Below are positions 1-2,282 of a DNA stretch of 34,561 nucleotides, in pieces. The translations under genes were made by a program, and so were the position numbers. The stretch spans positions 1-34,561 of the forward strand of contig JAQWQB010000108.1 in NCBI GenBank assembly GCA_029245065.1, read 5' to 3'. The stretch is from Flavobacteriales bacterium. Its GTDB lineage: Bacteria > Bacteroidota > Bacteroidia > Flavobacteriales_D > Sanyastnellaceae. The first letter of the stretch is position 1. Each line of letters starts with the position of its first letter. A model generated the notes under the pieces. It made no database searches and was not told the DNA's origin. It saw nothing but the letters and a program-made list of their open reading frames with translations.

Positions 1-490
1 TACTCATGATTGCTCCCATTAAAAGATGGGCATTTGAGTAGCACTTTAACGTGGGGATTTTTGACCTAAAAAAGGTAATTATTTCAGCCGTTAGCTCTGA
101 ATTACCGAGGTCTGCAAATAGCAATTTCGCGTTCAGCTCAGGCAAGTCGGCAGTGGTAATTTCTCCCTTCCACTCTCTGAATGAGAGGCCCATTAACTGT
201 TCAGATTTTGCTGGGTCGAACAAACCAGAAGGAATCATGCTAGCTGGAGCCCCTCTTACTACAAGGGCCGATGACTGATAAGCATAACTAAATGTTCGAA
301 TAGCTGCCAATGTTTCTTTTGTAGGCGAAAAAAGCTCTCCCACTTCAACCACCATTCCTTTATCGATGGTTGTAACAGCCCATTGCAAGCTGTCCCTATC
401 AACAAGAAGGCTGAGATGGCAGTAATCTGCCAACTCAGCCGTAAAGTTCTTATCCGATAGGAGAAATTCTTTTTTACTTCCAGTTACCAT
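1..490 (-). CDS. DUF3822 family protein (N-terminal part; runs off the left edge)
   Basis: An open frame reads leftward from an ATG at 488-490 and is still open at the window edge, giving about 163 codons. The N-terminal stretch (FTAELADYCHLSLLVDRDSL) and the following beta-rich pattern resemble DUF3822, an uncharacterised Bacteroidota family with an actin/hexokinase-like fold, usually about 260 residues. The ATG lies inside the 3' end of the upstream membrane-protein gene (17-nt overlap), so the two are probably co-transcribed and perhaps translationally coupled. No Shine-Dalgarno sequence is visible. The family assignment is from memory of its sequence pattern; the function is unknown. Confidence 0.7.
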   Translation of the reverse strand, partial: MVTGSKKEFLLSDKNFTAELADYCHLSLLVDRDSLQWAVTTIDKGMVVEVGELFSPTKETLAAIRTFSYAYQSSALVVRGAPASMIPSGLFDPAKSEQLMGLSFREWKGEITTADLPELNAKLLFADLGNSELTAEIITFFRSKIPTLKCYSNAHLLMGAIMS

Positions 491-1355
491 CGGTAATTGG
501 ATCTTTCAAGTTTCCGAAGCGAAGTGTGTCTTTCACCACTTTCTCTCTACCAAAAGGTGTTGGATCTTGTACCAATATAGTAGACTTCGTTACCCCACCT
601 TGATTCGCCGTGCTCGTTCTCATGATGAAACGCTTGCCAGACGAAGGCGTGAATGGTAAAGAATCTAGATCTACTGGAGGAAGTTTCTTTGCAACTCTTT
701 TCTCAGGAGTAAAGTTTTCTGCGTAGAAGGTGGTGAAGATATTGTCACGCACTTTGTACGCCGTCTTATCTTCTTCAATCAGTTTGGAAAAGTCTTCTGC
801 TGAGTAGCCGTTTTCGATTGCTACAGAATCAATTTCTTGGAGCGTAAGAACATACCCCATTTCATAGTACTTGTCTTCTGGCATTGAATCCGTGTAGAAC
901 GTACCACTAGAATATGGAATAGCTACTGCTGGTTTTTGAATCCACTCTAGCAACGTATCAAAGTTGTTGGTGAATTTACCATTCGCTTCTTCATATGCTT
1001 CTTGTGCAGAACGGATATCGATGAGTCTTCTCTTTGTTAAGTTGTCGTACTTCACTTTTTTCTCTTGGAAGGCAATTTCGTCATCAATAGAGAAGTAAAC
1101 TGAATATCCTAGATAAGCTGTTACAGCCAACCCACAGAACAACATTATTACAGTCGCCTTTTTTCCAATGTGTTGTAAAACGTCAGGAGCCGCTAGCACA
1201 CCAAGGGCAATAAGAATAAGTGCCGAAAACAACATTTCGATTGGCTGTGTTTCGATTTCATCACCACTTAAATACTTGAAAAGGAAGAATAATCCGAAAA
1301 CCACCAAGATTGCTGTGATCACATATTTTCCGAGGGTTCTTACAATTTGTTCCAT
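474..1355 (-). CDS. uncharacterised membrane protein with three N-terminal helices
   Basis: A 293-residue protein I cannot name. Three hydrophobic segments sit near residues 10-29, 38-56 and 66-90. A charged linker and a soluble, mainly extracytoplasmic-looking domain follow to the end. The segment just after the helices (RLIDIRSAQEAYEEANGKFT, about 110-130) is an amphipathic helix followed by a G-K-F-T turn, a pattern reminiscent of pilin-like or pseudopilin domains but not sufficient to assign one. It overlaps the downstream DUF3822 gene by 17 nt, so both likely belong to one operon. A perfect TAnnTTTG box lies 44 nt upstream of its ATG. No enzyme motif is visible. Confidence 0.8.
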   Translation of the reverse strand: MEQIVRTLGKYVITAILVVFGLFFLFKYLSGDEIETQPIEMLFSALILIALGVLAAPDVLQHIGKKATVIMLFCGLAVTAYLGYSVYFSIDDEIAFQEKKVKYDNLTKRRLIDIRSAQEAYEEANGKFTNNFDTLLEWIQKPAVAIPYSSGTFYTDSMPEDKYYEMGYVLTLQEIDSVAIENGYSAEDFSKLIEEDKTAYKVRDNIFTTFYAENFTPEKRVAKKLPPVDLDSLPFTPSSGKRFIMRTSTANQGGVTKSTILVQDPTPFGREKVVKDTLRFGNLKDPITDGNWK

Positions 1356-1407: not shown

Positions 1408-1633
1408 CAATTTTTTGTTGTTCGCGTGAAGCGAATATTTCCATAGATTTTTACAATTCTACTCTGTCTTGGCAGTTCTTTCACTCCTTCAGACATCAAG
1501 ATTACGTTATGAATGGCGAAAGTATTTCATCGAAATAAAAAAAAATTCGAAATAAATGTGACCCTTTCAAAAAGCTTGCGTCCTAATGGTGATTCCGTCA
1601 AAGGATGGAACAACGAATGTTAGTGTTTTATTG

Positions 1634-1731
1634 CCGAAGCAGACAGCGACAGGGTTTTTGTGGCTATATTAAAAGGTCACCATTGGGAGAGAGTGGTGAA
1701 CTCCCTAGAGTCTGCTTCGGTTCTTTTTTTT
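1634..1731 (+). ncRNA. candidate structured small RNA ending in an intrinsic terminator
   Basis: Between the divergent genes (gap 1356-1862) lies an element closed by a perfect 11-bp stem, CCGAAGCAGAC at 1634-1644 with GTCTGCTTCGG at 1710-1720. It is followed almost at once by eight Ts (1724-1731). Inside, AGGG (1651-1654) can pair with CCCT (1703-1706), and TCACCA (1677-1682) with TGGTGA (1694-1699). A competing pairing GGGAG (1685-1689) with CTCCC (1701-1705) is also possible. The T-run is downstream only on the plus strand, which sets the direction. ndk has its own -7 box further on, so this looks like an independent transcript of about 100 nt and not an ndk leader. It matches no RNA family I know (not SRP, 6S, tmRNA or RNase P). 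No convincing promoter was found, and the rest of the gap holds nothing I recognise. Confidence 0.5.
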
Positions 1732-1862: not shown

Positions 1863-2282
1863 ATGGCTACGAATAAGACATTTACTATGATTAAGCCTGA
1901 CGCAACTGGCGCAGGAAACACAGGGAAAATCATTGACCGTATTATTGGCGCAGGATTTTCTATTACTGCTATGAAGCTAACTCAGCTTACACAAGCTGAC
2001 GCTGAAGCATTCTACGCAGTGCACAAAGAACGTCCGTTCTACGGAGAATTGGTTGACTACATGACTTCTGGTCCTATTGTAGCGGCAATTCTTTCGAAAG
2101 ACAACGCGGTAGAAGATTACCGTACGTTGATTGGAGCTACCAACCCAGCGGAAGCTGCAGAAGGTACTATCCGTCGTGACTTCGCTGAATCAATTGCTGC
2201 CAACGCAGTACACGGTTCTGATAGCGATGAGAACGCAGCCATTGAAGGTTCTTTCTTCTTCAGCAACCGCGAAGAAGTTTAA
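1863..2282 (+). CDS. ndk: nucleoside diphosphate kinase
   Basis: A 139-residue cytosolic enzyme that transfers the gamma phosphate of an NTP (usually ATP) to NDPs through a phosphohistidine, balancing ribo- and deoxyribonucleotide pools. The active-site signature NAVHGSDS is present with the phosphorylated His at residue 117. KPDAT near residues 11-15 and the RPFY segment (57-60) are also typical, and the length is normal. The open frame extends upstream to a TTG at 1845, but the ATG at 1863 gives the usual N-terminus and sits a normal distance after a TACCTTTG box. The gene is monocistronic in appearance: a hairpin follows it and the next gene has its own upstream region. Confidence 0.97.

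Follow-up and report, generated by a model that had tools for sequence, protein, structure and literature searches.

A structured RNA upstream of ndk in one family of Flavobacteriales and its putative place in an ECF sigma factor feedback loop

The DNA analysed here, referred to throughout as the window, is a stretch of 34,561 nucleotides from a Flavobacteriales bacterium. It raises the question of what kind of RNA is encoded by the strongly self-complementary segment lying between a membrane-protein-like gene and ndk, and on what that RNA might act.

Fold and conservation of the RNA

The segment is built around a perfect 11-bp helix joining 1634-1644 to 1710-1720, or 12 bp when the G1633-T1721 wobble is counted, which is followed by TTC and then by eight T at 1724-1731, as an earlier note on this DNA had described. 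Folding z-scores were -3.56 for 1620-1735 and -4.36 for 1632-1722 (0 of 200 shuffles folded as well in either case), and the predicted fold of 1589-1728 has an energy of -49.0 kcal/mol. The note's further statement that the element fits no RNA family agrees with searches of Rfam 15, which gave nothing at the gathering threshold over the whole window and nothing on the RNA's strand up to E 10 in 1500-1870; a description of this RNA was likewise not found in narrow searches of the open-access literature. The RNA is also crossed by two ORFs, 56 and 62 codons long; since the sequence of the closing stem differs from genus to genus, we regard them as chance occurrences. The element is a real structured RNA, novel in having no Rfam match.

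Copies in relatives (genomes and loci are designated below by G and L numbers) were collected by several routes. A DNA search covering 40 genomes, that of the window among them, located copies in four more members of the window's family (G024, G004, G011 and G015), and R1, a covariance model of the core that was based on five sequences and run over 399 genomes of the order, added G046, G048, G049 and G040 among 39 genomes matching at E up to 0.1, most of them weakly. In addition, ndk was located in 96 of 114 family genomes, and the region upstream of it, scanned in 67 of these and printed for 29, contributed G270, G005, G010, G045 and G458, bringing the total to 14 genomes. A second model, R2, built from 11 of the 14 copies, recovered all 14 over the same 399 genomes, G045 and G458 only by stem P3 and weakly, and gave nothing strong beyond the window's family in these and a further 395 genomes of the phylum, with a first pass that scores only about 14 candidates per genome, so that diverged copies can be missed. 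Convincing copies thus come from 14 genomes, all of the window's family, with one per genome; the stretches of G049, G024 and G048 also occur in three named records, those of Cryomorphaceae bacterium ASP10-05a, Flavobacteriales bacterium MAG_179 and an uncultured Flavobacteriales bacterium, respectively. A 15-base pattern scan of contigs returned at least 80 loci, and in the 23 of 80 that were rescanned with R1 three strong full-length matches appeared (L057, L062 and L089), which are the G049, G024 and G048 copies.

Several candidates were set aside. Weak model matches at L029, L031-L036 and L092 lacked the RNA layout when they and their flanks were viewed by eye, the G028 match of the first DNA search falls outside the RNA, and a GGGAGAG upstream of ndk in G001 appears by eye to be part of a divergent coding gene. 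Weak R2 matches were taken as chance both in the order (G436, G425, G309, G360, G562 and a second place in G458; E 0.0008-0.009) and in six genomes of the phylum (E 0.0045-0.0086), as were the other weak model matches. One weakly matching locus, in G014 (L032 1501-1814), carries three almost identical units, spaced by about 137 nt, in all of which a strong hairpin AAAAGGTCACC/GGTGACCTTTT occurs; the stretch looks tRNA-like and is not the ndk-linked RNA.

The window RNA, all of whose parts lie on the forward strand, can be divided into three stems. The closing stem P1 (1633-1644 with 1710-1721) ranges from about 7 to 17 bp, and most genera differ in its sequence: the window has GCCGAAGCAGAC/GTCTGCTTCGGT, G015 has GCGACAAGAA/TTCTTGTCGC, and in G049 the helix is AT-rich. 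The short P2 pairs AGGG at 1651-1654 with CCCT at 1703-1706 and occurs in the variants AGGG/CCCT, GAGG/CCTC and GGGG/CCCC. A one-sided bulge, GUGGCUA (1660-1666), separates P2 from P3 (1676-1684 with 1692-1700), which varies in sequence beneath a constant loop at 1685-1691 that reads GGGAGAG in 12 of the 14 genomes and UGGAGAG in the other two (G270 and G005). In a composite alignment of 10 distinct rows from 12 genomes (A9; G024 and G049 left out), which was hand-trimmed to the proposed stems and hence favours them, both sides changed in 16 of 19 pairs, a count equalled by 1 of 500 shuffles; 96.3% of cells were paired, against 42.9-56.3% in slid versions, the covariation score was reached by no shuffle, and P2 was paired in all 10 rows. 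RNAalifold, applied to 11 less trimmed sequences, recovered P3 and not P1 or P2, in an alignment where the P1 strands are out of register and some of the 11 lack most of P1. At the level of sequence comparison, these results demonstrate a predicted fold of P1, short P2, one-sided GUGGCUA bulge and P3 with its GGGAGAG loop that is kept by compensatory change.

This fold bears on a proposal of the earlier note, which had pointed to two interior pairings, TCACCA/TGGTGA (1677-1682 with 1694-1699) and GGGAG/CTCCC (1685-1689 with 1701-1705), as the mark of a switch-like or pseudoknotted RNA whose stems should show compensatory changes. Both pairings are present in the window, and compensatory changes were indeed seen in the composite for the closing stem and for the TCACCA/TGGTGA hairpin; for GGGAG/CTCCC, judged by eye, no covariation was seen. 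CTCCC is kept in the window, G004 and G024 and is replaced elsewhere by CACCTC, CGCCTC, CGCCCT, TGCCCT, TGCCCC, AACCCC or AGCCCC, and by eye each variant matches the P2 5' strand upstream of the bulge while the loop stays constant. The CTCCC strand therefore changes with P2, and we replaced the proposed switch by the covarying P2 helix; a contact of the loop GGG with part of the CTCCC strand remains conceivable.

The bulge itself is identical in 10 of 14 genomes, reads GUGGCUC in G010, G045 and G458 and is lost in G049. In predicted folds it is mostly paired in the window (mean unpaired probability 0.30) and still more so in G010, G045 and G458 (0.03-0.16), with values of 0.58-0.78 in the other eight. 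The terminator described in the earlier note is likely for the window's lineage, with its eight T at 1724-1731, and is not general: a T-run right after the stem is clear in the window, G004, G011, G010 and G045, reduced to four T in G046 and G040, and absent in G015, G048, G270, G005, G458 and G049.

The simplest role for an RNA in this position would be that of a cis-acting leader or attenuator of ndk (1863-2282, forward strand; nucleoside diphosphate kinase, PF00334, E 7.7e-52), a reading favoured by its location upstream of ndk on the same strand in 12 of 14 genomes. Against it, the RNA of G004 and G024 precedes an FtsX-type permease gene and ndk lies elsewhere, so that the RNA does not always occupy the 5' leader of the same gene, and the window's ndk has, as the earlier note stated, a promoter-like box of its own past the T run, a sigma-A-like -7 element TACCTTTG recognised by eye at 1829-1836 on the forward strand and outside the RNA (consensus TAnnTTTG, PMC9723704; this source and PMC11005410 are cited here from partial text). 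We dropped the attenuator as the main reading on account of these two genomes, and consider it extremely unlikely. The divergent gene on the other side of the RNA (474-1355, reverse strand) has no Pfam or NCBIfam match; by eye, a similar gene adjoins the RNA even in G004 and G024, the two genomes in which RNA and ndk are apart.

A promoter-like block and its putative regulon

A feature that the earlier note had not described lies 50 nt upstream of P1, where a -35-like element, TGTGACC (1557-1563, forward strand), is followed after 15 nt by a -10-like CGTC (1579-1582, forward strand). The pattern TGTGACY-N15-CGTC stands upstream of the RNA in 10 of 14 genomes, window included, always with a spacer of 15; it lies 39-59 nt before P1 in nine genomes, among them the window's, and also upstream of the G024 RNA, and it is missing within 140 nt in G010, G045, G458 and G049. 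CGT-type -10 boxes correspond to motif SM6 of PMC9723704 and suggest an ECF sigma factor. A transcript driven from this block would start 7 nt past CGTC and end at the T run, giving a proposed small RNA of about 140 nt at 1589-1731 on the forward strand.

To what extent the block marks other genes was assessed in nine genomes, where the exact pattern occurred 50 times against 23 for the same pattern read backwards, or 41 against 23 (p 0.016) once the nine RNA sites that prompted the pattern are removed; in 20 of 30 inspected matches the block lies outside ORFs of at least 80 codons. Regulon content is more telling than motif count. An ECF sigma gene lies behind the block in G011, G046, G015, G048 and G005. 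Seven of the nine genomes have in this place the gene of a related coiled-coil protein whose start resembles a signal sequence (no Pfam family in the two examples tested). Three genomes have a neutral zinc metallopeptidase and three a related secreted-looking protein, the window's being among them in both cases, and two have MscL. OmpA-like, outer-membrane barrel and M48 peptidase genes occur singly, and the other matches are without a recognisable partner, a few of them inside genes. Downstream of the ECF gene of G011 come the genes of two MscS-type channels and of a DUF3078 protein. We read the block-bearing genes as a putative envelope or osmotic stress regulon. As the block stands before the ECF sigma gene itself and before related genes that different genera have in common, the RNA is probably a member of such an autoregulated ECF regulon. 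G011 also has an ORF of 64 codons (L332 2732-2926) that lies ahead of the MscS genes and overlaps the sigma gene at its end; its product might be a small anti-sigma factor or a coupled protein.

The block is missing from four genomes that have the RNA, and the shape of the RNA is rod-like and closed, as might be expected of a structured RNA with no relation to the ECF factor, such as a 6S-type or protein-binding RNA located behind a motif that arose by chance. The identical spacer in 10 genomes and the same block before regulon genes shared between genera speak against this reading, as does the comparison with 6S-Flavo (RF01685), and we regard it as improbable. 6S RNA had been our first guess from shape, since 6S-Flavo is also a small closed-stem RNA in Bacteroidota; its core and layout differ, and RF01685 had no match at E up to 10 in 1500-1870. 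The same model matched 21 of 198 phylum genomes, and none in the window's own genome or 60 relatives, among which no positive control matched either. At the one 6S-Flavo locus checked (L007, about 1501-1607), the RNA precedes, by eye, an RNase Y-like gene.

An orthologue of the ECF sigma factor was found in 8 of 24 tested genomes (G004, G011, G046, G270, G015, G048, G005 and G040), all eight of which have a motif-bearing RNA and carry the block upstream of the sigma gene. Because five of these sigma genes were found through the motif, only G004, G270 and G040 test the block afresh; their sigma genes, found by protein search, lack the exact motif, and the block differs from it by one mismatch in G004 and by a spacer 1 nt shorter in G270 and G040. 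Orthologues were not found in G010, G045, G458 or G049, in ten genomes without a recognised RNA, or in the window's assembly and G024, both of which have a motif-bearing RNA. The orthologue was found in 8 of 10 genomes with motif-bearing RNA (Fisher 6e-5 over the 24 genomes, a set of related genomes of our own choosing). Among 17 sigma-like matches in the genome of the window, the closest reaches 27% identity. Since related regulon genes of that genome also carry the block, we favour a gap in the assembly of 143 contigs as the reason for the missing orthologue, with loss or replacement as a conceivable alternative. The sigma ORF of G015 is shortened to 120 codons (L282 1554-1913) and seems to run into MscS-like sequence, through either a fusion by deletion or an assembly error; its end resembles a portion of the MscS-type channel encoded after the sigma gene of G011.

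Complementarity between the bulge and the sigma factor leaders

A second finding beyond the earlier note is that the ECF sigma mRNAs, which have short leaders, contain a complement of the bulge 0-9 nt before their TTG start. It extends over 9-10 bp in five of the eight genomes (AUAGCCACA in G011 and G046, UAGCCACAUU in G040, CUAGCCACAU in G005 and AACUAUAGCC in G048) and over 6-7 bp in the other three (UAUAGCC in G015, GCCACA in G270 and UUAGCC in G004). Among 2000 dinucleotide shuffles of each leader, with genomes treated singly and their relatedness uncorrected, as strong a pairing was reached by 9 in G011, 10 in G046, 3 in G040, 2 in G005 and 5 in G048; the values for G015 (53) and G270 (58) are marginal, and that for G004 (865) is no better than chance.

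Of 50 motif matches, 36 leaders of motif-driven genes were compared for pairing with the bulge, leaving out the nine RNA matches and five that were unfetched; the ECF leaders of G004, G270 and G040 fall outside the 36 because their motifs are not exact. The four strongest duplexes all belong to ECF leaders, the five of which rank 1, 2, 3, 4 and 7, and no non-ECF leader of the 36 has more than seven consecutive Watson-Crick pairs. For the top four the probability is 8.5e-5, or 6e-4 after collapsing G011 and G046, in what is again an author-chosen set of related genomes. When all RNAs were set against all leaders, the RNA of the same genome was best or tied for only three of eight leaders (G011, G046 and G005), and the RNA of G010, a genome where no orthologue was found, scored best on the leaders of G004, G270 and G048; species-specific coevolution of RNA and leader is therefore not supported. 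The bulge GUGGCUA is intact in all eight genomes with an orthologue and in two without, and altered or lost in four without.

From this promoter type, regulon and complementarity, which constitute sequence evidence, we infer transcription, sigma dependence and repression. The ECF sigma factor would transcribe both its own operon and the RNA, whose bulge would pair just upstream of the sigma start codon, and this pairing would lower sigma translation, thereby closing a negative feedback loop. We give somewhat better than even chances to this model of a free-standing, ECF-driven small RNA of about 140 nt whose bulge acts as a seed on the sigma leader. Evidence against it comes from the orthologue missing in the window's assembly and in G024, from the weak pairing of three leaders, from the four genomes that have the RNA and no block, and from the predicted fold of the window RNA, in which most of the proposed seed is paired. 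That the RNA instead activates the ECF mRNA appears very unlikely: FoxJ, a sigmaE-dependent small RNA, does activate some of its targets (PMC11005410), but with a complement ending 0-9 nt before the start codon of a very short leader, pairing would be expected to hinder initiation.

More weight attaches to a reading in which the RNA is ECF-driven and its real targets are other mRNAs, for example those of outer membrane proteins, contacted through GGGAGAG, with the match to the ECF leader coincidental or minor. The loop is kept in 14 of 14 genomes, irrespective of whether an ECF orthologue was found in them; three of the eight leaders pair weakly; and known envelope-stress small RNAs repress outer membrane proteins (PMC11005410). 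The rank of the ECF leaders among the 36 and the distribution of the intact bulge, kept wherever the orthologue was found and altered or lost in four of the six genomes where it was not, argue for the sigma leader as a target, and we judge this reading rather unlikely.

In the feedback model too, the loop probably has another partner, either mRNA or protein, since it is kept where seed and block are gone; a search for its complement in the first 250 nt of the ECF mRNAs gave no consistent site, with G011 alone reaching -13.5 kcal/mol. Furthermore, since G010, G045, G458 and G049, in which no orthologue was found, keep the loop without the block and with the seed altered or lost, we tentatively consider a stress RNA of two modules, in which GUGGCUA would silence the RNA's own sigma mRNA and GGGAGAG would have a role independent of that sigma factor, a possibility to which we give less than even chances.

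Relation to known envelope-stress small RNAs

RybB and MicA are sigmaE small RNAs of Escherichia coli and Salmonella. The RNA proposed here would resemble them in forming the noncoding part of a response to envelope stress under an ECF sigma factor, with feedback on the activity of that factor (see also PMC11005410); their feedback is described as running through repression of outer membrane proteins, whereas here the predicted target is the sigma mRNA, sequences having been compared by the Rfam search alone. While envelope-stress sigma small RNAs are best known from Proteobacteria, recent cases have come from Fusobacteriota (PMC11005410). Like the RNA proposed here, FoxI and FoxJ, the sigmaE-dependent small RNAs of Fusobacterium nucleatum, are assigned to an ECF sigma factor of envelope stress in a phylum other than Proteobacteria. 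FoxI and FoxJ have a C-rich seed and directly repress the porin FomA, and overexpression of either lowers rpoE expression (PMC11005410). In the available text of that source we found no claim of direct pairing to rpoE mRNA; here, comparing by description, the proposed seed is GUGGCUA and the predicted target a sigma leader. Within flavobacteria, the putative regulatory RNA Rfp11 of Flavobacterium psychrophilum lies behind an ECF-type SM6 (CGT box) promoter, of a type that also precedes an ECF sigma gene (PMC9723704). Again by description, it differs in that the available text gives no target for it and in that the SM6 regulon centres on T9SS and Band-7 genes.

A narrow search of the open-access literature, which is weak evidence, found no small RNA feeding back on an ECF sigma mRNA by base pairing. 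If the proposed loop is true, an ECF sigma factor would be restrained at the level of its own mRNA through an RNA whose transcription it directs, and the locus brings together in one unit the RNA, a putative promoter, a candidate for the sigma factor and a pairing site that is open to testing.
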